Assembly (NCBI GenBank): GCA_903849645.1
Contig: CAINJJ010000001.1
Coordinates: 124,001 to 188,000, forward strand
DNA from: an uncultured Acidobacteriaceae bacterium
GTDB lineage: Bacteria > Acidobacteriota > Terriglobia > Terriglobales > Acidobacteriaceae
Reading direction: 5' to 3'
Length of the DNA: 64,000 bases
Positions within the stretch are counted from its first letter, which is position 1, and each line of letters begins with the position of its first letter. Of the stretch, positions 8,687 to 54,167 are shown in pieces. Position numbers and translations under genes: made by a program. Under the pieces are notes generated by a model that ran no database searches, was not told the origin of the DNA, and saw only the letters and a program-made list of their open reading frames with translations.

Positions 8687-8959
8687 ATGGCGAGCCAATC
8701 GGATTCGATTCTGGTCAACCTGGGTCCGCTGCTGAAGAGCGTGGAAAGCCGAGTGCAGTCTGGGAGCTATGCGAGCGCCGATGAGGTGCTTAGGGCGGGA
8801 CTGCTGGCTCTGGAGCGCGAAGAGGCGGCGACGGATGAGTGGCTGATGCGTTTGGCTGAGGAGTCATTGGCGGATCCTCGGCAGAGCGTGTCGGCGGAGC
8901 AGGTCTTCAGGGAGTTGCGGGCGCGCCATGGAAGGCGGGCGGTCGACTCGCAATGGTAG
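8687..8959 (+). CDS. ParD-family antitoxin
   Basis: A 90-residue protein with a ribbon-helix-helix start (SDSILVNLGPLLKSVESRVQSG) and the ParD hallmark SYASADEVLRAGLLALEREE. The C-terminal tail is charged and should bind the toxin. It overlaps the downstream ParE-type gene by seven bases, so the two are co-translated, and it is expected to repress its own promoter. It lies 46 bases after the acyltransferase gene. Confidence 0.85.
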   Translation: MASQSDSILVNLGPLLKSVESRVQSGSYASADEVLRAGLLALEREEAATDEWLMRLAEESLADPRQSVSAEQVFRELRARHGRRAVDSQW

Positions 8960-9276
8960 ACCGGTATGAGGTTCATTTCAGCGCGAAGGCGGTCGAGGAT
9001 CTCGACCGCCTTTTCGTTTTCATCGCGGAACGATCGAGCTTGGAGATTGCGGACGGTTATCTTGCCCGCATCGAGCAGTTGTGTCTCAAGCTTCGCACGT
9101 TTCCAAACCGAGGAACGGCGGTGAAGGGGACGATCAAGGGGTTACGGCGGATGGGCTTTGAGCGTCGAGCGACTATTCTGTTTCGCGTTGGAGATAGGCG
9201 AGTGGAGGTGCTTCGCATTCTTTATGGAGGGCGGAATATCGACCCGCTCACTGGGAAGTCAGGGGAAGCAGAATGA
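8953..9276 (+). CDS. ParE/RelE-family toxin
   Basis: A 107-residue RelE/ParE-fold toxin: YEVHFSAKAVEDLDRLFVFI, then AIEQL-like helix, RRMGFERRATILFRVGDR and VEVLRILYGGRN near the C-terminus. ParE members poison DNA gyrase and RelE members cut mRNA; the ParD-type partner favours ParE. Its TGA stop overlaps the ATG of the next gene (ATGA), so a third, non-toxin gene is coupled to the module. Confidence 0.85.
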   Translation: MVDRYEVHFSAKAVEDLDRLFVFIAERSSLEIADGYLARIEQLCLKLRTFPNRGTAVKGTIKGLRRMGFERRATILFRVGDRRVEVLRILYGGRNIDPLTGKSGEAE

Positions 9277-30060: not shown

Positions 30061-30306
30061 ATGCAGAGCATCACTCTCCGCCAGCTTCGCGATACCCGTC
30101 AGGTCAAAGCCTGGCTCAAGGCGGGCGTCCACATCGAAGTGCGCGAGCGGAACGTCGTGCTGGGCGATCTGGTGCCGCGCACTCCGCCCAATCCAAGCGC
30201 TGTCGAGTGGCCCGATTTTGCCGCCCGCCTAAAGGCCATTTACGGAGACCGGGTCATCCCCGCGGTTGCTGACTTACTTGAAGACCGGGAGAACAGCCGC
30301 TATTGA
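30061..30306 (+). CDS. Antitoxin, Phd/VapB type
   Basis: An 81-residue protein in the antitoxin position before a PIN toxin. The N-terminal half SITLRQLRDTRQVKAWLKAG and VEVRERNVVLGDLVPR resembles Phd/YefM antitoxins. The C-terminal half (residues 40-81) is acidic and probably disordered until bound by the toxin. Its TGA overlaps the TTG of the toxin gene (TTGA). Confidence 0.72.
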   Translation: MQSITLRQLRDTRQVKAWLKAGVHIEVRERNVVLGDLVPRTPPNPSAVEWPDFAARLKAIYGDRVIPAVADLLEDRENSRY

Positions 30307-30731
30307 TCGTTTATGTTGATTCCAGCTTTCTCGTTGCGGCTTACGCTCAGGATGAGCACTCCGCCGAAGTCGCCCGGAGGTTATCCAGGCAGCATCAGGT
30401 CGCAATCACGCCTTTCAACCAAGTTGAACTGGAGAATGCCGTTTTCCGGCTGGTCTTTCTTGGCAGGCATTCAATGGGCGAGGCGCACCTGGCATCCCGG
30501 AGCTTCGAAAGCGACTGCCGACAAGCAGTCTGGTCAGCTGTGGCGTTCCCCGCTCGCGCTTGGGAGACATGTGCAGATCTAGCCCGCCGATACGGCCCCG
30601 CCTTTGGGGTACGCACACTCGACACCCTGCACGTTGCCTGCGCTTTGGAGCTGAACGCGCAGAAGTTCTGGACATTCGATGAACGGCAGGCTCGGCTCGC
30701 CGAAGCGGTTGGACTCGACACCAGCGCCTGA
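30303..30731 (+). CDS. PIN-domain toxin (VapC-type ribonuclease)
   Basis: A 142-residue PIN protein. The acidic set is visible: D5 in MIVYVDSSFLVAAY, E in PFNQVELENAVFRL, D in RTLDTLHVACAL, and D in FWTFDERQARLAEA. The start is a TTG in four-base overlap with the antitoxin, so translation is coupled. Unlike the toxin at 5063-5449, this one belongs to a different PIN subgroup (VDSSFLVA rather than LDTHALLW). Confidence 0.88.
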   Translation: MIVYVDSSFLVAAYAQDEHSAEVARRLSRQHQVAITPFNQVELENAVFRLVFLGRHSMGEAHLASRSFESDCRQAVWSAVAFPARAWETCADLARRYGPAFGVRTLDTLHVACALELNAQKFWTFDERQARLAEAVGLDTSA

Positions 30732-31923: not shown

Positions 31924-32691
31924 ATGCGGGCAGTTTCATTCATCACGGCGCTGGCGGGGCTGGCGATGCTTGCGGGCTCGGCGCGGGCGGCTGAGCAGGT
32001 GACGCTGCGCAACGGCTTCGCCCTGCGCTGCGACCACCATGCGCCGGTCGACGGGCGCGTGCGGGTCTTCCTCAGCGCGGGCGGCAGCAACTACATCGAA
32101 TTCCGGCCGGAAGAGATCGCCGTTGTGGAGGCCGTGGCGGACGAGCCGGCAGTCGAAGAGCCTGCCGTCCAATCGGCTGCGCCTGTCGCAATCCCAAAGG
32201 CGGAGACCACCCTCTCGGCTGCCGACCTCCGCGAGATGTTGGCGCGCGCCGGACATGAGCACAATCTGGACGTGGACCTGCTGGCCAGCCTGGTGAAGGC
32301 GGAGAGCGGCGGAAACAGCCGGGCCGTGAGCCGCGCGGGCGCGCGTGGGCTGATGCAACTGATGCCGGGAACGGCGGCCAACCTGGGCGTGCGCGACAGC
32401 TTTGAGCCGGAGCAGAACGTGGGCGGGGGCGCGGTCTATCTGAACGCGCTGCTCGTGCGCTATCACGACAACATCGCGCTGGCGCTCGCAGCCTACAACG
32501 CCGGGCCGGAGGCGGTGGACCGCTATCATGGCATTCCGCCCTACCGCGAGACGCAGACTTACGTCGCGTGGGTGATTCACGAGTTCAACAAGAGGGTGAA
32601 GGCGCGGGAGGCCGAGGCGCGCCGGGTGCCTCGCGCCCCGGACACGCAGAGGGTGGCAGGCTCGGCGGCAGACCAGAAGGCCAGCCGCTAG
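31924..32691 (+). CDS. Lytic transglycosylase, SLT domain
   Basis: A 255-residue exported muramidase that cleaves peptidoglycan with 1,6-anhydro product. Signal peptide about 1-22 (ALAGLAMLAGSARA). A variable region with a basic start is followed by the Slt domain at about 110-225: catalytic E127 in LVKAESGGNSRAVS, then ARGLMQLMPGTAANLGV and LALAAYNAGPEAVDRY. It lies just before the encapsulin operon in the same direction; a 7-bp inverted repeat (32692-32717) between them might limit read-through. Confidence 0.9.
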   Translation: MRAVSFITALAGLAMLAGSARAAEQVTLRNGFALRCDHHAPVDGRVRVFLSAGGSNYIEFRPEEIAVVEAVADEPAVEEPAVQSAAPVAIPKAETTLSAADLREMLARAGHEHNLDVDLLASLVKAESGGNSRAVSRAGARGLMQLMPGTAANLGVRDSFEPEQNVGGGAVYLNALLVRYHDNIALALAAYNAGPEAVDRYHGIPPYRETQTYVAWVIHEFNKRVKAREAEARRVPRAPDTQRVAGSAADQKASR

Positions 32692-32847
32692 GGATCACCT
32701 GCGCAAGCCAGTGATCCAGGCGGTTCAGCTTCGCCAGCCAGGACGACCTCCCAGGCCCTCAAGAACAAGGATTCCGGCTTCCGCAACGCTCGAAACCACC
32801 AGATTCGGCGTAAAATCCTTGAGAAAGCTCTTCAAGGAGTCAAGACC

Positions 32848-33765
32848 GTGCCTTCGACCGAAAATCGCCGTTCCCTTGCCGATGCAGCAGCCCGCCAGTT
32901 AGCCAACACGACCAAAACCGCTCCTCAACTCTCCGCGATCACGCCGCGCTGGCTGGTGCAACTGCTCTCGTGGGTTCCGGTTGAGTCGGGAACCTACCGG
33001 GTGAACTCGGTCAAGAAAGAGCAGGTCACCGAGGTTGCGTGCGGCTCGCGCGACGAGCGGAAGCTCCCCGAGACCTTTGTGGACTACGTGGAGAAGGCGC
33101 GCGAGTATTCCCTGAGCGCCATCTCGACCATCGTGGACGTGCACACGCGTGTTTCCGATCTCTATAGCCATCCCCACGACCAGATCCGCGAGCAGCTCAG
33201 GCTGACGGTGGAGAAGGTGAAGGAGCGGCAGGAGAGCGAGCTGATCAACAACGCCGATTACGGCCTGTTGAACAGCGCGGCGCCGGAGTTCCGCATCAAG
33301 ACGCGGAAGGGCGCGCCGACGCCGGACGATCTGGACGAGTTGCTGGCGAAGATATGGAAGGAGCCGGCGTTTTTCCTGGCCCATCCGCGGTCGATTGCAG
33401 CCTTTGGGCGCGAGTGCACCCGGCGCGGCGTTCCTCCGCCGACGGTGACCCTGTTCGGCTCTTCCTTCCTGACCTGGCGCGGGGTGCCCATCGTGCCGTC
33501 GGACAAGCTGACCGTGGACGCGGCGGGCAGGAGCAACATCCTGCTGCTGCGCACGGGCGAGAAGCGCCAGGGCGTGGTGGGGCTGTTCCAGCCTGGGTTG
33601 CCGGGCGAGCAGACGCCGGGCCTCTCGGTGCGCTTCATGGGCATTGACCGCGCCTCCATCGCTTCTTACCTGGTTTCGCTCTATTGCTCGGCGGCGGTCC
33701 TCACCGAAGATGCCCTGGGCGTGCTCGAGCAGGTCGAGGTCGGTCACTACCATGAGTACAAGTAA
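32848..33765 (+). CDS. Family 2A encapsulin shell protein
   Basis: Self-assembles into a virus-like (HK97-fold) protein shell that houses a cargo enzyme. The 305-residue product resembles the SrpI type of family 2A encapsulin along its length; blocks such as [60 protein letters not shown] and [15 protein letters not shown] are characteristic, and no cyclic-nucleotide domain is present, which excludes family 2B. It starts at a GTG with AAGGAG eight bases upstream. It overlaps the cysteine desulfurase gene by 14 bases, so shell and cargo are co-translated. A weak -10 (TAAAAT) lies shortly upstream. Formerly annotated as a stress-inducible membrane protein; no membrane helix is seen. Confidence 0.92.
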
Positions 33766-35836
33766 TCCCTTTCCCGATCCAGGGGTTGAAGTGCTTCAGT
33801 TGGACGAGACGGCGGTGACCGCGGCACGGCAGGCGGTGGGCGCCGCTCTGCCCGACGTGGGCACGCTCACCCGCATGGCCAACGCGTTCTTCCGCGCCCT
33901 GCCGGGGGAGGGACTGCCCGCGGACCTGGAGCAGGTTCCGGCCAGTTTGACTCCGTCTGGATTCGGACACTCTTCGCTGAGCCAGGCAGCAGGCGGTGTG
34001 GCTCCCGAGGCCTGGGTTCCGGCGGCTGCGCAGCCCGCGCAGTTTGGGGTTCCCGTGCCTTCGATGCCGGGGCCGGTTCCCGCTCCAGTGTCCATCACGG
34101 CCGCACCGGGCTTCGGCTCGGCCATGCCGCAATCAGGAGCGGCTGTGCCCGGCGTGCCTTCCCTGCCCAATATCGACAAGATTCCCACGGAGTCTGACCT
34201 GGCGCGGCTCTATGGACGCGACTGGTCAAGGGGGCTGGGCGCCGAAGCCGCGGCGTTTGCTCCAGGCCCGGGGGGCTCTCTCTACGACGCACCGGTTCCC
34301 GCCGGCTACTCGACGGGAGCGCTGTCCGCCTCGCCGCAGCCGGGTGTGGGTTCGCTGCCGGGGACTGAGGTTGCTCAGTCGCCCTTTGCCATGCCGCTGC
34401 CGGAGTTTGACCTGGCCTTCCCGAACTTCGAGGCGTCGCTGCCGGTGATTCCGGCCCTGCCGGCGCAGGGTGACGACGACTGGTCCCAGGCGGCGCTCAA
34501 GGCAGGTTCGCAGTTCTATTTTCTGGAGCAGTCGGGCGCGCTCTCGCAGCCGGTGGAGACCGCTCAGGCTCCGCACACAACGCAGCCGGCCCAACCGTCG
34601 GTGCTGCCGGAGATCGATACCGCGCACCGGCAGTTTGACGTGACGACCATTCGCCGCGACTTTCCCATTCTGAACGAGAAGGTGAACGGAAAGCCCCTCA
34701 TCTGGCTGGACAATGCGGCAACCACGCAGAAGCCGCAGGCAGTCATTGACCGCATCTCGTGGTTCTACGAGCACGAGAACTCCAACATCCATCGCGCCGC
34801 GCATGAGTTGGCTGCGCGCGCCACGGACGCCTACGAGGACGCCCGAAACAAGGTAGCGCACTTCCTCAAGGCTTCCAGTTCCAAGGAGATTATCTTTGTT
34901 CGCGGGGCCACGGAGGCCATCAACCTCATCGCGGGCAGTTGGGGCCGGCGGTTCATCGGCAAGGACGACGAGATCGTGGTCAGCTGGATCGAACACCACG
35001 CCAACATCGTTCCCTGGCAGATGCTGGCGCAGGAAAAAGGCGCGCGGCTGCGGGTGATTCCCGTGGACGATACGGGCCAGATCCTGCTGGATGAGTATGA
35101 GAAGCTGCTGAACCCGCGGACGAAGCTGGTTTCGTTTACGCAGGTCTCGAATGCCCTGGGCACGGTGACGCCAGTCAATACGATGGTGCAGATGGCGCAT
35201 CGCCATGGCGCCCGCGTGCTGGTGGACGGCGCACAGGCGGTCTCGCACATGCCGGTGGACGTGCAGGATCAGGACTGCGACTTCTTTGTCTTCTCCGGGC
35301 ACAAGGTCTTTGGGCCGACGGGCATCGGCGTGGTCTACGGCAAGGAAGACGTGCTGGCCGATATGCCTCCCTGGCAGGGCGGCGGCAACATGATTGTCGA
35401 CGTCACCTTCGAAAAAACCATCTACCAGGGACCTCCGGCGCGGTTTGAGGCCGGGACGGGCAACATTGCAGACGCCGTGGGTTTGGGCGCGGCCATCGCC
35501 TACGTGGAGCGCATCGGGATGGAAAACATTGCGCGCCACGAGTATGAGCTGCTGGTTTACGCGACCAAAGAGCTGCTGCAGATTCCAGGGTTGCACCTGA
35601 TCGGTACGGCGAAGGAGAAGGCCGGGGTGCTGTCGTTCGTTCTGGATGGCTACCGCACCGAAGAGGTGGGCGCGGCTCTCAACAAGGAAGGCATCGCCGT
35701 GCGCTCAGGGCATCACTGCGCGCAGCCCGCTCTGCGGCGGTTTGGGCAGGAGACCTCGGTGCGGCCTTCGCTGGCGCTCTACAACAACCACGAAGACATC
35801 GACGCGCTGATTGCGGTGCTGCGCCGTCTGCGCTAG
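33752..35836 (+). CDS. Cysteine desulfurase, encapsulin cargo with long N-terminal extension
   Basis: PLP enzyme that takes sulfur from cysteine, forming a persulfide. Of 694 residues, about 1-294 are a Pro/Ala/Gly/Ser-rich, probably disordered extension; the SufS-type class V aminotransferase fold runs from about 295 ([16 protein letters not shown]) to the end. PLP lysine K518 lies in [13 protein letters not shown] and the catalytic C656 in [14 protein letters not shown]. SufS proteins are about 400 residues, so the extension is extra; in known family 2A systems such an extension directs loading into the shell. Only short blocks in it look ordered, for example [12 protein letters not shown] and [18 protein letters not shown] chose ATG 33752, overlapping the shell gene. 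A strong terminator follows. Confidence 0.92.
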
Positions 35837-35850
35837 AGCGGCAAAGAACC

Positions 35851-35910
35851 AAACGCCTCACCTGGGGCCGTTTCCGCGCGGGGCGCGGCGACCCTGGGTG
35901 AGGCGTTTTT
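35851..35910 (+). terminator. Terminator of the encapsulin operon
   Basis: AACGCCTCACC / GGTGAGGCGTT stem with a GC-rich inner segment, followed by TTTTT, 15 bases after the cysteine desulfurase stop. Classical intrinsic terminator. Confidence 0.82.
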
Positions 35911-36066
35911 CGTTCTGCTCATGCCGGCGGCCAGCAGGACCGGGGCCGGTCCGCACGGACCGCATTCACAACATATTGACCGTGATTGAATTGCGCGGAG
36001 CCGGACCAGCGGCTCGGGCGGCGATTTAGACTAGGCGAAGCCCACAGGGCAGGGTACGGAGGGCGC

Positions 36067-37143
36067 TTGACCAAGAAGCAGTGGATTGCGGGATTGGTGG
36101 TGGTGGTGGCGCTGGTTGCGCTCGTCGTATGGGGGCGCGATCGGATCCACTTCGATTTCGGGGTCTTCCGGTCGCAACTGGCGCAGGCCAACTGGTGGAA
36201 GATTGCCATCGCCACTGGCTGCATCTATGTGGGGTATGTCTTCCGGTCGGTGCGCTGGGCCTGGCTGCTGCGGCACAACAAGAAGGTTTCGCCGCTCTCC
36301 CTGGTGGGAACACAGGTCATCGGCTTCACCGCCGTGGCGCTGATTGGCCGCGTGGCAGACCCGGTGCGGCCCTACCTGGTGTCAAAGAGGACCGGGCTGC
36401 CGCTCAGCTCGCAGATTGCGGTCTACATTGTGGAGCGGCTGTTTGACGCGGGCTCGATGGCGCTGATCTTCTCTTCCGTGATCCTGCTGGCGCCGGCCGG
36501 GGCCATGCCTCATGCAGAGGTGGTGAAGAAGGCCGGCTACTGGGGCCTGCTGCTGACGGTGGCGGGCGCGCTGTTCCTGGTGGCGGTGCGGCTGGCTGGC
36601 GGGCTGGTTGCTGCGTTCTTCGAGAAGGTCTTCGGGCTGGTGTCAAAGAAGCTCGGCTTTGCCATCGGGCACAAGATTCGCACCTTCCGCGCCGGTCTTG
36701 ACACGATGCGCTCGTTCTCGGATTTCAGTGTTGCGGCAGCGGTTTCCCTGCTGATGTGGGGCCTGATTGCGCTCGCGTACCTGGAGACGACGCTGGCCTT
36801 TACCGCAAGCCCTGAACTGAGCGCCATGACGCTGCCCAGGGTCATGCTGCTGCTGGCCTTCAGCGGCGGCGCCAGCGCCCTGCAATTGCCAATCCTGGGG
36901 TGGTTTACGCAGATCGGGCTGGTGGCCGCGGCGATGACCAGCTTCTACGGAGTGGGGACTGAGGCATCCACCGCCTGCGCCGCGACCCTGCTGCTGGTCA
37001 CGTTTTTGAGCATCATTCCGGTGGGGCTGATCTGGGCGCGGTTTGAGCATGTGAGCCTGCGCAAGGTGGCCGCCGACAGCGGCCATGCGGAAGAAGAGCT
37101 GGTGGTCGAGGGCGAACCCAAGGCCGCCGACTGGGGCGTCTAG
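36067..37143 (+). CDS. YbhN/UPF0104-family flippase-like membrane protein
   Basis: A 358-residue integral membrane protein with about eight helices, of the lysylphosphatidylglycerol-synthase transmembrane family, thought to flip lipids or glycolipids. Family blocks are RSVRWAWLLRHNKKVSPLSL, GFTAVALIGRVADPVRPYLV and IVERLFDAGSMALIF. There is no aminoacyltransferase domain. A TTG start is inferred from GGAGGG just upstream and from the lysine-rich start preceding the first helix. Its own transcript presumably begins after the terminator of the encapsulin genes. Confidence 0.82.
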   Translation: MTKKQWIAGLVVVVALVALVVWGRDRIHFDFGVFRSQLAQANWWKIAIATGCIYVGYVFRSVRWAWLLRHNKKVSPLSLVGTQVIGFTAVALIGRVADPVRPYLVSKRTGLPLSSQIAVYIVERLFDAGSMALIFSSVILLAPAGAMPHAEVVKKAGYWGLLLTVAGALFLVAVRLAGGLVAAFFEKVFGLVSKKLGFAIGHKIRTFRAGLDTMRSFSDFSVAAAVSLLMWGLIALAYLETTLAFTASPELSAMTLPRVMLLLAFSGGASALQLPILGWFTQIGLVAAAMTSFYGVGTEASTACAATLLLVTFLSIIPVGLIWARFEHVSLRKVAADSGHAEEELVVEGEPKAADWGV

Positions 37144-39941: not shown

Positions 39942-40286
39942 CTACTTGAAGGAGGCGATCGCGCTGGCTTCGTCGTCCTTGATGTCGAAAACGGTGTAGA
40001 GCTTGGTGAGCTGCAACAGGTCGTGAACCTTTTTGGTGAGGTTGAGGAGCTTGATCTCGCCCCCCTGATTCTTGGCGGTCGTAAAGGCGCTGACCAATTC
40101 ACCGAGGCCGGAGCTATCGATGTAGTTTACGTCTCCCAGGTTCAACAGGATGCTTTTTGCACCCTTGCTGATCAGGTCGCGAACGGCATCGCGCAACTGC
40201 ACACTGCCCTCGCCCAGAGTGATCCGCCCACTGAGATCGAGAACGGTAACGCCGTCCACTTCTCGGGAAGCAATTGTCAATGCCAC
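39942..40286 (-). CDS. STAS-domain anti-anti-sigma factor (RsbV/SpoIIAA type)
   Basis: A 114-residue single STAS domain. The phospho-acceptor site is [12 protein letters not shown] with S58 or S59. In partner-switching systems the unphosphorylated form binds the anti-sigma kinase and frees a sigma factor. An RsbW-like kinase gene lies upstream on the same strand, 133 bases away, with which it should pair. No sigma factor is in the window. Confidence 0.9.
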
Positions 40287-40419
40287 GGAAGTTCCTCCTT
40301 GTTGGTATTACGGTTATAGCACTTTTTGGGTTCCGGGCGCTGTGGAAACTTCCCTGGAGTCCGGCGCCATGGCCCAAGCCATCCGGCTTCAATCCGCTGC
40401 AACTCCCTGTGCAAGTGCT

Positions 40420-40860
40420 TCAGGCTTTTTCCCCTGCCTGCGCCAGATGCTTTACCAGCGTCAGCTCAGTGCCGGGATGCAGTTGACGAAAGTGTACCTC
40501 ATCCATGAAGGAGCGAATGAGGAAGATGCCGCGACCGGTGCCGCGGAGAAGATTTTCAGGGGCCAGGGGGTCGGGCAGGGTGTCGGGCTCGAGTCCCTTG
40601 CCCTGGTCGGCCACGGTGAACACAAGGGCCGCGCCGGTGTTTTCAAAGCTGACGGCGATGCGCTTGGCGGGGTCGTATTCATTGCCATGCAGTACGGCGT
40701 TGACGGCGGCTTCGCGCAGCGCCATGGTGACGTGAAAGCGATCGTCTTCGTCGAGCCCGGCTTCGGCGGCCAGCTTTTCCGCGGCCGCTTCCACCTCGCT
40801 CACGCTCTCCATGGTGGAACTCAGGGTAAAACTCAGCCGTCCTGCCTTGGGTCCATTCAC
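40420..40860 (-). CDS. RsbW-type anti-sigma serine kinase, HATPase fold
   Basis: A GHKL ATPase of about 146 residues. N box: RFHVTMALREAAVNAVLHGNEYD; G1 box: VADQGKGLEPD; G2: RGTGRGIFLIRSFMDEV. It would phosphorylate the STAS protein and sequester a sigma factor when active. Start uncertain: GTG 40860 keeps the first beta strand (RLSFTLSSTMESV); ATG 40812 would cut it, and the frame is open to 40974. Located upstream of the STAS gene on the same strand. Confidence 0.8.
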   Translation of the reverse strand: MNGPKAGRLSFTLSSTMESVSEVEAAAEKLAAEAGLDEDDRFHVTMALREAAVNAVLHGNEYDPAKRIAVSFENTGAALVFTVADQGKGLEPDTLPDPLAPENLLRGTGRGIFLIRSFMDEVHFRQLHPGTELTLVKHLAQAGEKA

Positions 40861-41067
40861 CGGGTTCGTGTCCCCATTTCCGGAGCGGGCGGTGAGAGAG
40901 CAGCTATCCCGCCACCAGCAGCCTTGCAGGCAGTTTGATGGGTGGCGCGGAACTGTGTCAAGCGCAACAGGCACAGGGTGTTGGATTCGTGGAAATCAGG
41001 CCGCGGCCTGAGGCCATGCGAGCCATCGCAGCGGCGTGAACACGGGCTGAAGGGTTACACTTTTGCC

Positions 41068-46306: not shown

Positions 46307-47728
46307 CTAGCGGATCAGCTGGTCCACCTGCTTGCCCTCGGCGTTGAGCAGGGTGAGAACCAGCGGCATCTGTCCAAAGGCATGAGTGGAGCAACTGAGG
46401 CAGGGGTCAAAGGTGCGCACCACGGCTTCAATGCGGTTGAGTACGCCCTCGGTGAACTTGCCGTCCTTGACGTAGCTTTTTGCCGCCTGCAGCACGCCCT
46501 TGTTCATCGCGTTGTTGTTCTGGCCGGTGGCGATGACGAGGTTGGCCCAGGTGATGAGCCCGTTCTCGTCCACCTTGTAGTGGTGCATCAGCGTGCCACG
46601 CGGAGCTTCGGCCTGTCCCGCGCCTTCAAGGCGGTTGACGCCGGCCACGGCGCGCACATGCGTGTCGAGGATGAGCGAGTCGGTGAGGATCTCCTCGATC
46701 TTCTCGATCCCGTAAAGGATCTCGATGAGGCGCGCGTGGTGGTAGTGGAAAGAGCTCTCGACGGGGCCTTTCGCAATCTGCTTGAACTCGATCAGTTCTT
46801 TCTCCGCGAGCGGGGTGCCCATGGAGTCGACGATGTTGAGGCGGGCAAGAGGGCCCACGCGGTAGCTGCCGTCTGGGTAGCCGAGGGGCTTGTAGTAGGC
46901 GAATTTGGTGTAGCTGTAGTCCTCGACGGCCTCGCCGATGACCTCAGTGAACCGGGTTGCCGTGATGCCGTCCTCAATGACGCCGCCGTGTGGCCCGATG
47001 AGGCGGAGATTGCCGTCGGTGAACTGGATGGACTCGTCTTCGTTGATGAGCGAGAGGTAGTTGGACGGAAAGTTTGCGAAGACTTCAATCTCTGGCTTGA
47101 ATCGGTCGGCGATCTGCTTGTAAGCGGTGAGGGCCAGCTTGATGCCAGCATACGCTTCCGGCAGCATGGCCAGGATCTCGTCGCGCTTGGCCGAGGACAG
47201 GGGCTCGGTGACGCCGCCGGGCACAACCCATCCTGGATGGATGCGCTTGTTGCCCAGCAACTCGATGATGTGCTGGCCAAAGCGGCGCAGGGCAATGCCG
47301 GCGCGGCCCAGCTCGGGCGCGGCAGCCACCACGCCGAAGACGTGCCGTGTCGCGGGGTCCGATTCCATGCCCAGCAGCAGGTCGGGCGAGGAGAGATAAA
47401 AGAAGCTCAGCGCGTGCGACTGCACCATCTGGGCCAGGTTCAGCATGCGCCGCAGTTGCGCGGCGGTATGCGGAATGCGGACGGCCATGATGGCTTCGCA
47501 GGCCTTGGCCGAGGCAATCAGATGCGAGACCGGGCAGATGCCGCAGATGCGCGCCATCAGGCTGGGCATCTCATAGAACGGGCGGCCCTCGGCGAACTTC
47601 TCAAAGCCACGCACCTGCGTGACGTGAAAGTGCGCGTCCTCCACCAGGCCCTGGTCGTTCAGCTGGATGGTGATCTTGCCGTGGCCTTCGAGGCGTGTGA
47701 CGGGATCGATGGTAATGGTCTGACTCAT
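46307..47728 (-). CDS. hoxH: Bidirectional [NiFe] hydrogenase, large catalytic subunit
   Basis: The 473-residue subunit carries the NiFe centre. Ligand motif L1 is [17 protein letters not shown] (about residue 58-74) and L2 is [17 protein letters not shown] near the C-terminus. Residues after L2 ([18 protein letters not shown]) form a tail that HoxW may cleave after the conserved His. Other blocks [14 protein letters not shown] at the N-terminus and [10 protein letters not shown] are typical. In operon after hoxY. The HoxEFUYH set marks group 3d, NAD-linked, cytoplasmic. Confidence 0.95.
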
Positions 47729-47750
47729 GGGGCAGGCTCCAGAAAACTCT

Positions 47751-48284
47751 TTAGGCTCCGAAACGGGTGAGGGCTGGAATGTCCAGCGGCTCGCCGGTAA
47801 TCAGCGCGGTGAGCGCTGCGTGGAAGGTGTCAGCCGAGGGCGGGCAGCCGGGCAGGAAGACGTCTACCTTGACGAACTCGTGGATGGGACGCACCACACG
47901 CAGCAGCTTGGGCACAACAACGCAGGGAATCTGCTGCTGCACGTCGGCGTTCTCAATGTAGGCGCGCTCCAGGATGGCTTCCGGGCCGATGGGATTGCGC
48001 ATCGAGGGCACGTTGCCGGCCACGGCGCAGTCGCCCATCGCGATCAGCAGCTTGGCGTGGGCGCGGATCTTCTTGATCTTCTTCTCGTCGTCCACCGAGG
48101 CCACGGCGCCCTCGACCAGCGCGATATCCACTTCGTCGGGGAACTCCTTGGTATCGACGATGGGGCTGTAAACCACATCGACCAGTGCGGCCAGTTCGAT
48201 GAGCCGCTCGTCCATGTCCAGGAACGACATGTGACATCCGGAACATCCGTCCAGCCAGACAGTTGCCAGTTTCAGTTTGCTCAT
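47751..48284 (-). CDS. hoxY: Bidirectional hydrogenase, small subunit
   Basis: A 177-residue subunit holding the proximal [4Fe-4S] cluster: [29 protein letters not shown] and [16 protein letters not shown] provide the four cysteines. It is short, without a Tat signal, as expected for the cytoplasmic HoxY (NuoB-like) form. Its ATG overlaps the hoxU stop by four bases. Confidence 0.95.
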
Positions 48285-48994
48285 TGCGCTTCCCTCATGA
48301 GGTTCAGCCAGGGCAGAAAATCAGGATACTTGGGATGATCAGAGCCGACCTTGCTCTTGTCGAACAGGGCTCCGGTGGGGCACACCTGCACGCACTTGCC
48401 GCAGCGTGTGCAACTCGAGCTTCCCCAGGGATCGTTCAGGTCGGTGATGACCGATGAATTGATGCCGCGTCCCATCACATCCCACACATGCGCGCCTTCG
48501 ATCTCCGCGCAGACCCGCACGCAGCGCGTGCAGAGGATGCAGCGGTTGTGATCGAGCGTGAACCGCTCATGCGAGGCGTCGACCGTCAGTTCCGGATTGC
48601 GATAGGGCAGGCGGACGTGCGTGAGCCCCTGCTGCTGGCCCAGTGCCTGCAGTTCGCAATGGCCGTTGGCCACGCAGACCGAGCAGATGTGGTTGCGCTC
48701 GGCAAAGAGTAGCTCAAGGATCGTCTTGCGGTGCTTCTTGAGCCGGTCGGTGGCTGTTTCCACCTCCATGCCTTCTTCAACCGTTGCCACGCAGGCGGGC
48801 AGCAGCTTGTTGGTGCCCTTGATCTCGACCAGGCAGAGGCGGCACGCGCCCACGTCGCCCAGGCCATCGAGATGGCAGAGCGTGGGAATGTCGATCTTGT
48901 TTTCCCGCGCCACTTCAAGAATGGTCTGGCCGGCGCGCGCGCTCACGTTCTGGCCATCGATTACGAGTGTTTTTACGTCCACGGCGACACTCAT
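48281..48994 (-). CDS. hoxU: Bidirectional hydrogenase diaphorase, iron-sulfur subunit
   Basis: A 237-residue NuoG-N-like electron-transfer subunit. Plant-type [2Fe-2S] at [19 protein letters not shown] (about 40-60), the His-Cys-ligated cluster near [16 protein letters not shown], and two [4Fe-4S] motifs [14 protein letters not shown] and [17 protein letters not shown]. It links HoxF to HoxY. ATGA overlaps on both sides: with hoxF upstream and hoxY downstream. Confidence 0.95.
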
Positions 48995-50631
48995 GCCAAC
49001 ACCTCCACGGGAGCTTCAATGTTGCAGACGCCGGCCGGACAACGCTTGTGCACGATGTGATCGATGTACTCGTTCTTGAAGTACCGGAGCGTGCTGAGGA
49101 CCGGGTTGGGCGCCGTCATGCCGAGGCCGCATAGGCTGGTCTCCTTGATGGTGCCGCAGAGATCGACCAGCAGGTCCAGGTCGTCCATGGTGCCTGTTCC
49201 GGCGCAGATGCGCGAGAGCAGGGTGAACATCTGCGCCGTGCCCGCGCGGCAGGGAATGCACTTGCCGCAGGACTCGGTCATGCAGAACTCCACGAAGAAG
49301 CGCGCCACGTTGACCATGCAGGACGTATCGTCCATCACGATCATGCCGCCCGAGCCCATCATCGAGCCAGCCTGGATCAGCGATTCGTAGCTGACCTGCA
49401 GGTCGAGATGCTCATCGGGGATGCAGCCTCCGGAGGGTCCGCCGGTTTGCACGGCCTTGAACTTGTGACCGTCGGGAACGCCGCCGCCGATGCCTTCTAT
49501 GATCTGGCGCAGGGTCATGCCCATGGGCACTTCCACCAGGCCGGTGTTGGTGATCTTGCCGGTGATGGCGAAGACCTTGGTGCCCTTGCTCTTTTCCGTT
49601 CCCACGCTGGCGAACCACTTGCCGCCCTTGCGGATGATCGGCGCGATGTTGGCAAAGGTCTCCACGTTGTTGATGAGCGTCGGCTTGCCCCACAGGCCGC
49701 TGACCGCCGGATAGGGCGGGCGGGGCTTGGGTGTGCCGCGCTTGCCCTCGATGGAGGCGATGAGCGCTGTTTCCTCGCCGCACACAAAGGCGCCGGCGCC
49801 GAGGCGAATCTCCACATCGAAGTTGAAGGGCGTGTTGCAGATGTTGTTGCCCAGCAGGCCGCGCCGCCGCGCATCGCGCAGGCAGTTGGTCAGCCGCGCC
49901 ACCGCCAGCGGATACTCAGCGCGGACATAGACATAGCCCTTGCTCGCGCCCACGGCATAGGCTGCAATGGCCATGCCTTCCAGCACGCGCTGCGGGTCGC
50001 TCTCCAGCACGCTGCGATCCATGAATGCGCCGGGGTCGCCCTCGTCGCCGTTGCAGATCACATACTTCAGGTCGCCGCCGGCCTTGGCCACCGTGCCCCA
50101 CTTCAGGCCCGTGGGATAGCCGCCGCCGCCGCGGCCGCGCAGGCCGCTCTCGGTGATCTGCTTGATCACATCGTTGGGCTCCATCTCCGTGAGAGCCTTC
50201 ACCAGCGCCTGGTAGCCGTCGTGGGCGATGTAGTCGTCGATGCGCTCCGGGTCAATGTGGCCCGAGTTCTCAAGCACCACGTGGACCTGCTGGTCAAAGT
50301 GCTCGCGCAGGTCGCACTGCAGCGCGGCCACGGGCTCTGCGCCCAGGCTGGCTGCCACGGCCGCGGCGTCCGAGGCCTTCACATGCTGATAGAGAATCTC
50401 TTCCGGGTCCACCAGAACCAGCGGGCCCGCGGCGCACAATCCCATGCAGCCGGTGCGGCGGATGAAGGCGTTCTTGCCCTGCTTCTCGGCTTCCTTGACC
50501 AGTTCATCCTTGAGCTTGTCCGAGTGCTGGCTCAGGCAGCCTGTGCCCATGCAGACATTGATCTCGTAATCGAACTTGGCGTTCTCCGCGCGAACGGATT
50601 CGGCAATCTGTTCCAGTTCTTCGATGTTCAT
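48991..50631 (-). CDS. hoxF: Bidirectional hydrogenase diaphorase, NAD/FMN subunit
   Basis: A 546-residue NADH-binding subunit. The N-terminal thioredoxin-like [2Fe-2S] domain shows [11 protein letters not shown] and [13 protein letters not shown]; the NuoF part shows [16 protein letters not shown] (NADH), [15 protein letters not shown] (FMN) and [15 protein letters not shown] (N3-type [4Fe-4S]). The start is ATG 50631, whose ATGA overlaps the hoxE stop. Reaction: electron transfer between NAD(H) and the hydrogenase module. Confidence 0.96.
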
Positions 50632-51125
50632 TCCACAGCCCACCTTTCCAGTTGCTCCAGCATCTGCTCGCCGGTCATCTGGCCCACCAGTTCGCCGTCG
50701 GTCAGCACCACCGGAGCACGCCCGCAGGCGCCCACGCAGCGCGCCGTCATCAGGCTGATCTTGCCGTCCGCGGTGGTCTGGCCCTGGGGAATGGCGAGGC
50801 GCTTCTCCGCCGCCGCCACCAGCTTGTCGGTCCCCTTGATGTAGCAGGCCGTACCGGTGCAGATTGTCATGGTGTGCTTGCCCGGAGGCTTGAGGCTGAA
50901 GTAGTGGTAGAAGGTCACCACGCCATAAGCCTGGCTCAGCGGTACGCGCAACGAACGCGCTACAAACCGGATCGAGTCGTCATCGAGGTAACCGAAGGCA
51001 GACTGCACGGTGTGGAGCGTTTCAATCAGCGCGTAACGAGCAAAGCCATTCTTGCGCATGGTGCCGTTCACGATCTTCCAACGTTTGTCGTCGCTCGGCA
51101 GCGGCGGTGGTGTGAAAGCTGGCAC
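50628..51125 (-). CDS. hoxE: Bidirectional hydrogenase, HoxE [2Fe-2S] subunit
   Basis: A 165-residue NuoE-like subunit with the thioredoxin-fold cluster CTGTACYIKGTD and ARCVGACGRAPVV (two and two cysteines), preceded by AYGVVTFYHYFSL. Presence of HoxE separates this group 3d enzyme from the Ralstonia soluble form. I chose GTG 51125 because GGGAGGA lies four bases upstream; the frame is open to 51221. First gene of the hox operon, divergent from adhE. Confidence 0.93.
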   Translation of the reverse strand: MPAFTPPPLPSDDKRWKIVNGTMRKNGFARYALIETLHTVQSAFGYLDDDSIRFVARSLRVPLSQAYGVVTFYHYFSLKPPGKHTMTICTGTACYIKGTDKLVAAAEKRLAIPQGQTTADGKISLMTARCVGACGRAPVVLTDGELVGQMTGEQMLEQLERWAVE

Positions 51126-51506
51126 GGTTCCTCCCGTTGACGGAACAAAACGCTCAGCGATTGTGCTGCCGGAGTTCGCTCCGTGTCTAGGCTTGTTGTA
51201 CGGCCCGGGGGGCGAAGGCAACCGTGACCACGGTCACCCGCATGATAAGAAGTCCCACTTTGTGGAATACCGTTCCGTAAGTCCCACAATGAATTGGGGG
51301 AAAGCGCATCGACCGCGGGGCTGACTTCGCAAGATCTCCCTCTCTCGATTTCTCTTGCTCAACTCCCGCGCCAACCGTGACTCGTGTCACATCGCGGGAT
51401 ATGGATTGAGTTCCATAATCCTCGTGAGGCGGTCCGGCCCTTTTGGGGCTTCTGCACCCTTCCAATCTGGCACGCTCCGACCTTCAATCCCTTGCGGAGG
51501 TTGTGG
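51126..51506. promoter_or_regulatory. Divergent hox-adhE regulatory region with two GTGA-N6-TCAC sites
   Basis: No gene is seen in these 381 bases. Two dyads fit the CRP/FNR-superfamily pattern: GTGACCACGGTCAC at 51224-51237, about 100 bases before hoxE, and GTGACTCGTGTCAC at 51377-51390, about 117 bases before adhE. Each faces one of the divergent genes. CGGAGG stands just before the adhE ATG. Confidence 0.6.
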
Positions 51507-54167
51507 ATGAGCGTCACATCGTTGGCCGAACTGAACTCCCTGATAGCGCGCGTTGAGAAGGCGCAGCGGCTTTTTGCCGCCTTCTCCCAGGCACAGGTAG
51601 ACCACATCTTCGCGCACGCCGCCCTGGCCGCGGCGGGCGAACGCATCCCCCTGGCGCAGATGGCCTGCGATGAGACCGGCATGGGCGTCGTGGAAGACAA
51701 GGTCATCAAAAACCACTTCGCCTCCGAGTACATCTTCAACAAGTACAAGGACGAGAAGACCTGCGGCATCCTCAGCGAAGACGAGGAGTCCGGCACCATG
51801 ACCGTGGCCGAGCCCATGGGCGTCATCTGCGGCATCATCCCCACCACCAACCCCACCTCGACGGCCATCTTCAAGGCGCTCATTGCCCTCAAAACGCGCA
51901 ACGGCATCGTCTTCAGCCCCCACCCCCGCGCCCGCCGCTCCACCTGCGCCGCGGCCCGCATCGTGCTGGATGCGGCTGTCGAAGCCGGCGCGCCCCAGGA
52001 CATCATCGGCTGGATCGACGAGCCATCTCTGGAACTCTCGAACGCCCTCATGCGCCACCCCGCCATCCGCCTCATTCTGGCCACCGGCGGCCCTGGAATG
52101 GTCCACGCCGCCTACTCCTCCGGCACGCCGGCCATCGGCGTCGGCCCCGGCAATACGCCTGTGGTCATTGACGAAACCGCCGACCTCAAGCGTGCCGTCG
52201 CGTCCATCCTCATGTCCAAGACCTTTGACAACGGCGTGGTCTGCGCCTCCGAGCAGGCCGTCATCGCCGTCGACGCCATCTACGACGACCTCCGCGACCG
52301 CTTCCGCCGCCACCTCGGCTACATCCTTTCGCCCAAGGAGACCGATGCGGTGCGCACGGTGCTCATGGTCAACGGCACGGTCAACCCCGCCATTGTGGGC
52401 CAGGCGGCCACACGCATCGCCGCCATGGCAGGCTTTTCCGTGCCGGCCAACACCCAGGTGCTCATCGGCGAAGTCACTGAAATCTCTCCCGCCGAGCCCT
52501 TCGCGCATGAGAAGCTCTCCACCGTCCTCGCCCTCTACCGCGCTCGTGACTTTGAAGACGCCGTCGACCGCGCCGCCGCCCTCGTCGCGCTCCAGGGCAT
52601 CGGCCACACCTCTGTTCTCTACACCGATCAGGACGGGCAGCACGACCGCGTCAACTACTTCAGCGCCCGCATGAAGACCTCCCGCATCCTCATCAACACG
52701 CCCTCCTCGCACGGCGGCATCGGCGACCTCTACAACTTCAGCCTCGCGCCCTCGCTCACACTCGGCTGCGGTTCGTGGGGCGGCAACTCCGTCTCCGCCA
52801 ATGTGGGACCGCAGCACCTGCTCAATATCAAGACGGTGGCCATGCGCGCCGAGAACATGCTCTGGCACAAGCTGCCCCACTCCATCTACTTCCGCCGCGG
52901 CTGCATGAGCGAAGCCATGAAGGAACTGGCCGACAAGAAGCGCGCCCTCATCGTCACCGACCCCTACCTCTTCAACCACGGCCACGCCGACGACCTGATC
53001 GCGCAGCTCAAGCGCCACGGTCTCGAGGTCGAGGTCTTCTTCCAGGTGGAGCCCGACCCCACCCTGACCACCGTTCGCAAGTGCGCCGAGGTGGCCGCGG
53101 CCTTCCGTCCCGACGTCATTGTTGCCTTTGGCGGCGGCTCGCCCATGGATGCGGCCAAAATCGCCTGGGCACTCTACGAACATCCTGAGGTCGACTTTCA
53201 CAGCCTCGCCATGCGCTTCATGGACATTCGCAAGCGCATCTATCCCTTCCCCAAGCTCGGCGCCAAGGCCACCCTCGTGGCCATCCCCACCACCTCCGGA
53301 ACCGGCAGCGAGGTCACGCCCTTTGCCGTGGTCACCGATGACGCCACAGGCAAAAAATATCCCCTCGCCGACTACGAGCTCACCCCGCGCATGGCCATCG
53401 TGGACCCCAACCTCGTCATGGGCATGCCCAAATCCCTCACCGCCTTTGGCGGCATCGATGCGGTCACTCACGCTATCGAGGCCTATGTTTCCATTATGGC
53501 CACGGAGTTCACTGACGGCCACGCCCTGCAGGCCCTCAAGCTGCTCAAGGACTACCTGCCGCAGGCCTATGCCCGCGGCGCGCAAGACCCCGTCGCCCGT
53601 GAAAAGGTCCACTACGCGGCCACCCTCGCCGGCATGGCCTTCGCCAACGCCTTCCTCGGCGTCTGCCACTCCATGGCCCACAAGCTCGGCGCGCATTTCC
53701 ACCTGCCCCACGGCCTCGCCAACGCCCTGCTGCTCTCCAACGTGGTGCGCTACAACGCCAACGACAACCCCACCAAGCAGTCGGCCTTCTCGCAATACGA
53801 CCGGCCCAAGGCGCGCTGCCGCTATGCGGAGATCGCCGTGGCCCTCGGCCTCGGCGGAGACACCACCGGCGAAAAAGTCGACAACCTCGTCGCATGGATT
53901 GAGGGCCTCAAGACCGCCATCGAGATTCCGCCCTCCATGCAGGCCGCTGGCGTGCCGGAGGCGGAGTTCCTCGCGCGCCTCGACACCGTCGCCGTCGACG
54001 CCTTCGACGACCAGTGCACCGGCGCCAATCCCCGCTATCCGCTTATCAGCGAACTGCGCCAGATTCTGCTCGACTCCTACTACGGCCGCCCCTTCGCCGA
54101 ACCGGGCAACGAAGAGCAGCCGCAGCCGGCAGAAGCAATGGAAGAAGTCCTCGCCGCTCACGCATAA
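51507..54167 (+). CDS. adhE: Bifunctional acetaldehyde-CoA/alcohol dehydrogenase
   Basis: Reduces acetyl-CoA to acetaldehyde and then to ethanol, using two NADH. The 886-residue protein has an aldehyde dehydrogenase half (about 1-450; catalytic Cys in [13 protein letters not shown], and [18 protein letters not shown]) and an iron-type alcohol dehydrogenase half (about 460-870; [26 protein letters not shown], and the metal-binding [19 protein letters not shown]). Full-length fusion. The ATG follows CGGAGG. Divergent from hoxE with a shared regulatory region, so the two may respond together to low oxygen. Confidence 0.96.

Follow-up and report, generated by a model that had tools for sequence, protein, structure and literature searches.

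A family 2A encapsulin and cysteine desulfurase gene pair, probably a transferred sulfur cassette, in an uncultured Acidobacteriaceae bacterium

The stretch of DNA analyzed here (the window) comprises 64,000 nucleotides from an uncultured Acidobacteriaceae bacterium and corresponds to positions 124001 to 188000 of contig 1 of a 4.54-Mb genome in 56 contigs. It contains a two-gene operon encoding a shell protein of encapsulin family 2A and a cysteine desulfurase whose N-terminal extension is predicted to direct it into the shell, and the pair is probably a sulfur cassette that reached this lineage by transfer. According to the available text of PMC8346489, there are 1281 family 2A desulfurase operons across 12 phyla, and serine acetyltransferases and rhodaneses are their most enriched accessory genes. 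Desulfurase encapsulins are classed under sulfur storage in the available part of PMC12407261. Shell loci of relatives are labeled L0xx and genomes of relatives G0xx; L002 is from Granulicella sp. S156.

The shell protein matched the NCBIfam model NF041162 (encap_f2a) with 528.6 bits (cut-off, 380) over profile positions 1 to 295 of 295, and PF19307 (SrpI-like; 364.4 bits) was its sole Pfam match. Against solved shells, the scores were 482.8 bits for SrpI (PDB 6x8m) and 475.3 bits for the shell of Acinetobacter baumannii (PDB 8t6r). The full-length family 2A shell claimed in the original prediction is borne out by these matches. Structure prediction had been proposed there as a check on whether the fold is HK97 or another one. 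In a Foldseek search with the predicted model, the top seven solved matches were all family 2 encapsulin shells (best E value, 1.1e-30), although the mean predicted local distance difference test (pLDDT) score of the model was just 56.5, so that the HK97 assignment is carried mainly by homology. Judged by these matches, the shell is a family 2A encapsulin with the HK97 fold. In a protein search, 8000 candidates sharing the most words were scored and the best 120 were listed. Among the matches listed, a 90% identical protein in a Terracidiphilus metagenome-assembled genome (MAG) is already named "family 2A encapsulin nanocompartment shell protein," and the same name stands on an 83% identical protein from an Acidobacteriaceae MAG. 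The shell and desulfurase pair is a further member of an already known kind and not a new kind. A partial literature search gave, among the matches listed, no report on an acidobacterial family 2A cage.

The cargo protein scored 879.4 bits against NF041166 (f2_encap_cargo1; cut-off, 800) and 566.4 bits against TIGR01979 (sufS; cut-off, 475.1). Its residues 285 to 693 matched the solved desulfurase domain 8kg1 with 635.3 bits; PDB matches begin at residue 285 to 295, and the extension lies ahead of the desulfurase domain. We take K518 to be the pyridoxal 5'-phosphate lysine and C656, in the RxGHHC motif, to be the persulfide cysteine. Across 72 aligned cargo proteins, consisting of that of the window and 71 of the 76 from relatives (five without a start codon near the shell stop were omitted), the K518 column held K in all 71 rows reaching it and the C656 column held C in 68 of 68, the row of the window included. 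The lysine was read from the alignment columns; a narrow sequence pattern matched only 29 of the 72 rows. The intact catalytic residues of the original prediction are thus correct in the numbering from the ATG at 33752 and invariant in the aligned relatives.

In Synechococcus elongatus, the desulfurase is loaded by an N-terminal extension with two short motifs, LARLANEFFS and AASPYYFLDG (available text of PMC8049743). The extension encoded in the window bears counterparts of both, at residue 39 and near residue 252. Among 12 aligned cargo proteins, residues P34, A43, N44, F47, and P51 were invariant besides M1. In eight Granulicella-type extensions, the YFLE of motif 2 was invariant, and two further conserved blocks were seen around PQFGA..PS and SPF..PLP.F. 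With loose patterns, 64 of 68 full-length cargos matched motif 1 and 49 matched motif 2, but these counts had no shuffled control and are not used as support. As a separate observation, the extensions of Sulfotelmatobacter-like cargos are about 425 residues long and carry one to four LFSFP-like repeats (12 examined), which were absent from the 9 Granulicella-type and 17 alphaproteobacterial extensions examined. These repeats are perhaps multiple shell-binding sites.

The two genes are tightly arranged. The mechanical open reading frame (ORF) of the cargo opens at a TTG at 33644 (730 residues), and the ATG at 33752 alone yields the residue numbering of the original prediction. With this ATG, the reported 14-base overlap of the genes is confirmed (33752 to 33765). 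The origin of the overlap lies in the conserved shell end YHEY, whose codons TAC CAT GAG TAC contain an ATG in the +1 frame, and the same explanation may hold in relatives. A genome scan for shells gave 106 loci in relatives, of which the best 80 were kept. The desulfurase gene was downstream of the shell gene in 76 of these 80 fetched loci, and in the other four the contig ends 10 to 1046 bases past the shell stop. An ATG at offset -14 was present in 29 of the 76 loci holding both genes, and an ATG at -29 without one at -14 was present in 21. The claim that a strong terminator closes the pair was also upheld. The arms of its inverted repeat lie at 35851 to 35870 and 35889 to 35908 and are followed by Ts; the fold of -44 kcal/mol compares with a shuffle mean of -26.9 kcal/mol (z = -5.6), and none of 200 shuffles was equally stable. 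This terminator was not listed by a simple terminator scan, whose rule admits loops of 3 to 8 bases only. In the window, no Rfam family was above threshold and no tRNA was found.

No serine acetyltransferase or rhodanese gene had been noted near the pair, and this held. With one CysE and one CysK of relatives as queries, tblastn (1e-10) gave no match within the 64 kb; likewise, none was found there with a metallo-beta-lactamase-rhodanese, a sulfate-binding protein, and an oxidoreductase, each from one relative. Concealed partner genes in the window are rejected on the results for these five proteins. Rhodanese domains were absent from the contig of the window; the four in the genome lie on contigs 8, 25, 30, and 53. 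A survey of related acidobacteria for added partners, suggested with the original prediction, showed that such genes do accompany some loci. Within the stored flanks of the best 80 loci, a CysE-like gene was present in at least 32, a CysK-like gene in at least 23, and either in at least 45, while a metallo-beta-lactamase-rhodanese gene and a sulfate-binding-protein gene were each present in at least 8; the counts are lower bounds because the flanks differ in extent and certain loci are short. For the CysE reference, the score passed the cut-off of the model for EpsC-type acetyltransferases but not that of TIGR01172. Among nine Granulicella-type loci, only L006 has such a partner gene, a CysK. 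Since partner genes are nearly absent from this clade, their lack in the window is typical of it and not special. The metallo-beta-lactamase-rhodanese fusion gene, a possible persulfide-handling partner, flanks the shell gene in L027, L040, L042, L046, L047, L049, L051, and L058.

The pair sits between a lytic transglycosylase (SLT) gene and a flippase-like gene. The SLT gene had been described as a membrane-lytic enzyme gene; this is corrected to a peptidoglycan lytic transglycosylase (PF01464), a cell-wall enzyme. Its position beside the pair had been called incidental, and rightly so, as the gene is part of an older row of HAD hydrolase, transglycosylase, and flippase genes. The flippase-like gene was sought in 89 genomes of relatives and matched in 78, and the best 30 of the 78 loci were fetched, that of the window included, with at most about 1.5 kb of flanking DNA. 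The SLT and flippase genes were adjacent in 21 of the 29 other loci, with 61 to 190 bases from the SLT stop to the flippase match; in the remaining 8 loci the SLT gene was outside the short flank, making them uninformative. Within the fetched flanks, a shell or desulfurase gene was seen at none of the 29. Four of the 21 genomes with an intact row carry a shell gene elsewhere (G007, G010, G024, and G043, all of the genus of the window). Ten genomes behind shell loci were also checked (L002, L003, L004, L006, L007, L008, L010, L018, L041, and L048). A flippase match was found in nine, and in eight of these the SLT gene adjoins it with no shell or desulfurase gene between. Because the uninterrupted row is widespread, a gain of the pair at this site in the lineage of the window is the most economical reading. 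The pair was thus most likely gained between the SLT and flippase genes. DNA similarity to the pairs of relatives spans from 32831, at the ribosome-binding site (blastn against L002), to within the final codons of the desulfurase gene. A repeat search of 32600 to 36100 found no repeat pair readable as copies flanking both insertion ends.

Shell genes were present in 18 of 149 relatives (14 above the cut-off) versus 0 of 14 control genomes. The shell of the window shares 90% identity with one of two shells in Granulicella sp. S156 and 62 to 70% with 11 shells from ten genomes of its own genus. The housekeeping proteins gave the reverse order: IscS is 83% identical to that of S156 versus 91 to 94% to those of seven of the nine congeners tested, and HscA is 69% identical to that of S156 versus 85 to 88% to those of seven congeners. 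In the other two congeners, G006 and G038, close IscS and HscA proteins were lacking (best, 44 to 49%). In a careful tree of 35 selected shells of relatives and that of the window, a group of the window, S156, and Granulicella palsa_287 was supported 97/96, and the 11 congeneric shells formed a separate group (100/100). An earlier quick tree had omitted two partial shells, L067 and L068. A grouping of the window with its congeners was rejected by the approximately unbiased (AU) test with a P value of 0.0115, which is somewhat flattering because the groups were chosen after the quick tree had been seen. The ten Granulicella-type loci, the window included, have little in common in their surroundings; one gene is shared at 78 to 83% identity by 3 of their 45 pairs (L007, L008, and L009) and one match at 36 to 38% by 2. 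Taken together, these comparisons argue with good confidence for horizontal transfer of the pair into this lineage, probably from a Granulicella-like donor. Two family 2A shells on different contigs were observed in Granulicella sp. S156 (L002 and L005) and in G010 (L085 and L100).

Along with the selection behind the AU value and the low confidence of the shell model, several results weigh against a transferred, cargo-loaded cage. The shell also exceeds the cut-off of the family 2B model (447.3 versus 400 bits). This match covers the shell core alone (residues 57 to 300 on profile positions 208 to 450, best stretch), the cyclic-nucleotide-binding domain that defines family 2B was not found in the shell by the Pfam search, and a protein of 305 residues has no room for the extra domain; family 2B is therefore rejected despite the score. 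The cargo model was poor throughout (mean pLDDT, 45.3; residues 47 to 295 below 50), and such a model is no evidence of disorder and by itself says little on fold. Both models are poor because the alignments were shallow (29 and 12 rows). A sigma-70 scan of 32600 to 36100 found 0 promoters (0.4 expected); the "self-contained operon" originally described is thus upheld by half, through its strong terminator. The S. elongatus knockouts had no growth defect, leaving the role unproven even there (available text of PMC8049743). For the window, cage assembly, loading, and a sulfur function are predictions from genes. As to transfer, the congener G006 has a Granulicella-type shell (79%), so the genus is split, and the GC content and third-position GC content of the pair resemble those of neighboring genes. 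A foreign base composition was sought and not seen, and the native-like composition gives no support to a recent foreign origin. Two old gene copies followed by unequal loss could mimic transfer.

On this last account, an ancestor held two shell lineages that were kept differently, and the pair was relocated within the genome. The two shell genes held by each of S156 and G010, the shell of G006, and the native-like composition would all agree with it. However, the shell of the window is closer to that of S156 (90%) than to that of the L003 genome (86%), although the L003 genome is the nearer one by IscS (86 versus 83%), HscA (75 versus 69%), and flippase (64 versus 41%). Moreover, of the 13 full-length shells that were placed from the 18 carriers in 149 relatives, only that of G006 is of the Granulicella type, and the ten Granulicella-type loci share almost no neighbors. 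Vertical descent with relocation is therefore considered unlikely, and transfer is the preferred explanation.

The sulfur metabolism of the host bears on what the transferred pair may do. No match to PF01458 (SufB/SufD) was found in the host genome at an E value of 0.001, whereas all 14 control genomes matched; the completeness of the host genome is 100% by tool estimate. Contig 56 carries a gene for an Rrf2-type regulator followed by genes for IscS, IscU, an IscA-like protein, an HscB-like protein, and HscA. IscS (equivalog), IscU, and HscA were above their cut-offs, and the HscB-like protein was below. On contig 34, a NifS/IscS-like desulfurase gene adjoins mnmA. Cluster assembly and tRNA thiolation thus have desulfurases of their own. 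With this ISC operon and second desulfurase present and no SufB/SufD found, a SUF scaffold is probably not what the SufS-type cargo supplies in this host. SufB/SufD were found in 43 of 89 relatives. Within the genus, some cage carriers have SUF (G006, G023, and G038) and others show no SUF match (the genome of the window, G007, G008, G009, G010, G021, G024, G027, and G043; some genomes are incomplete), indicating that the cage is not tied to SUF. By analogy with other bacteria, from which sulfur handling by the pair is extrapolated, sulfur storage or release would fit the cargo better than SUF supply. The most likely role, by the same analogy and because clusters and tRNA thiolation are otherwise served, would be the banking or buffering of cysteine sulfur. 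As a side observation, SUF and ISC seemingly replace each other in the genus, the host having ISC without SufBD and G006 and G038 having SufBD without a close IscS or HscA.

The cargo could instead feed Fe-S assembly or another protein acceptor, the shell merely choosing the acceptor. Its catalytic domain does belong to the SufS subfamily by the TIGR01979 score given above, and the host genome has the four rhodanese-domain matches. In addition, the available text of PMC8346489, with rhodaneses and serine acetyltransferases as the most enriched partners, proposes channeling to a chosen rhodanese. Nevertheless, SufB/SufD were not found in the host, its ISC operon includes a separate IscS, there is no rhodanese on the contig of the window, and the carriers in the genus are found with and without a SUF match. 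Delivery to a protein acceptor is accordingly judged quite improbable.

Under the banking role, the gene overlap would couple cargo translation to shell translation. From what is seen in studied relatives, the shells would assemble into icosahedral cages, the extension would bind the shell wall during co-assembly via its 10-residue motif and FYFLEQSG, and cysteine would enter the cage through pores. The desulfurase would free the cysteine sulfur as a persulfide on C656 and pass it on to a stored form, which may later be released by a host thiol or by an acceptor protein encoded elsewhere. A more tentative extension of this scheme, which we hold as somewhat doubtful, is that the pair is a free-standing mobile two-gene "sulfur bank" without dedicated partners that enters unrelated acidobacterial sites and works with ISC or SUF hosts alike. 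It would be indifferent to ISC or SUF because its product, in that reading, would be sulfur in storage rather than a persulfide bound to a scaffold.

A decaying or silent phage capsid remnant beside an unrelated desulfurase, suggested by a fold common to phage capsids and by database records naming some relatives "Phage capsid-like protein," is rejected as highly improbable, since both frames are intact, curated 2A models fit nearly the whole length, the gene order is kept in 76 of the 76 loci reaching far enough, the catalytic residues are invariant, and the sole phage-collection matches are two records of 328 to 379 kb with the usual bacterial mmpI-sufS pair. These "Acinetobacter phage" records, CAKLQH020000001 and CAKLQF020000001, hold an mmpI-sufS cage pair and are probably bacterial contigs.

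Family 2A desulfurase cages are widespread, yet arguments about their role draw on very few organisms. To the known family this locus adds a polarized empty site, together with probable transfer, and a host in which no SUF scaffold genes were found. The host offers a natural test, as it would have a cage without a SUF scaffold or operon partners, and a sulfur phenotype would not be attributable to SUF. Close relatives in which the site is empty allow a clean with/without comparison of physiology, and the empty site suggests that the two genes alone suffice for usefulness after transfer.

Table 1. Features of the shell and cargo gene pair and its flanking genes (positions in the window)
Feature	Position	Strand	Basis or remark
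Left flank: lytic transglycosylase (SLT) gene	31924..32691	+	PF01464, 88.5 bits
Likely ribosome-binding site of the shell gene, AAGGAG	32834..32839	+	Read from sequence
Family 2A encapsulin shell gene	32848..33765	+	GTG start, TAA stop, 305 residues; NF041162, PF19307, and PDB 6x8m matches
Cargo cysteine desulfurase gene	33752..35836	+	ATG start, 694 residues; NF041166, TIGR01979
Overlap of shell and cargo genes, 14 bases	33752..33765	+	Sequence
Cargo N-terminal extension (to residue 294 or so), rich in Pro/Ala/Ser/Gly and presumed to mediate loading	33752..34633	+	Loading by such an extension is established for S. elongatus only (PMC8049743)
Cargo motif 1, 13 residues (39-51)	33866..33904	+	Counterpart of published LARLANEFFS
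Cargo motif 2, 14 residues (249-262)	34496..34537	+	Counterpart of published AASPYYFLDG
SufS-type cysteine desulfurase domain, residues 295-694	34634..35833	+	PDB, Pfam, and NCBIfam matches
K518 codon	35303..35305	+	K in 71/71 aligned rows
C656 codon	35717..35719	+	C in 68/68 aligned rows
Intrinsic terminator closing the pair	35851..35914	+	Fold -44 kcal/mol, z -5.6; inverted repeat
Right flank: flippase-like membrane protein gene	36067..37143	+	PF03706, 65 bits; likely TTG start, mechanical ORF from 35986

Elsewhere in the window, a ParD/ParE-like toxin-antitoxin pair lies at 8687 to 9273, and a PIN-domain gene preceded by a small unassigned ORF lies at 30303 to 30731, 2.1 kb upstream of the shell gene. 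Adjacent STAS-domain and HATPase_c_2 genes at 39945 to 40974 resemble an anti-sigma antagonist/kinase pair. At 46310 to 54164, genes for a NiFe-hydrogenase large subunit and, close by, a NuoF-like protein are followed on the opposite strand by an AdhE-like gene of the aldehyde/alcohol dehydrogenase type.

Compared with known systems, the family 2A pair of A. baumannii (PDB 8t6r) has the same cargo type and a closely scoring shell in an unrelated host, and it is reportedly a store of elemental sulfur. The SrpI/CyD pair of S. elongatus PCC 7942 (PDB 6x8m/6x8t) has a shell that is homologous over its length and 64% identical in the structural alignment, and its cargo desulfurase, likewise of the SufS type, has a long extension in which both published motifs occur. 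The S. elongatus pair is plasmid-borne whereas that of the window is on a chromosome contig, and the extension has 225 residues there versus about 294 here. In S. elongatus, the desulfurase is roughly sevenfold more active inside the shell, and sulfate starvation induces the system (available text of PMC8049743); sulfate-starvation induction is a feature of S. elongatus, as elemental-sulfur storage reportedly is of A. baumannii, and the pair of the window is known from its genes alone. Family 2B shells (PDB 9bje and 9bhu) share a homologous core, and some load desulfurases (available part of PMC8346489), but they carry an inserted cyclic-nucleotide-binding domain (available part of PMC12407261) that is absent from the 305-residue shell of the window.

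Closer to the host, "Ca. Sulfotelmatobacter" and related Terriglobales (L018, L021, L027, and L040 to L060) have the same shell and cargo types. Unlike that of the window, their cargo extension has the length of about 425 residues and the LFSFP-like repeats described above, and in several loci the neighbors include CysK, CysE, metallo-beta-lactamase-rhodanese, and an uncharacterized oxidoreductase-like protein. The nearest counterparts are the Granulicella-type pairs (L002 to L010, from S156, G. mallensis, and MAGs). Their cargo extensions have 222 to 246 residues in L002 to L008 and 337 in L010, versus 295 in the window by the same measure. Each is at a different genomic place, none beside the SLT and flippase genes within the stored flank. 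They belong to the same clade as the pair of the window and have the same gene order, with the -14 ATG overlap in 8 of the 9, CysE in 0 of 9, and CysK in 1 of 9.

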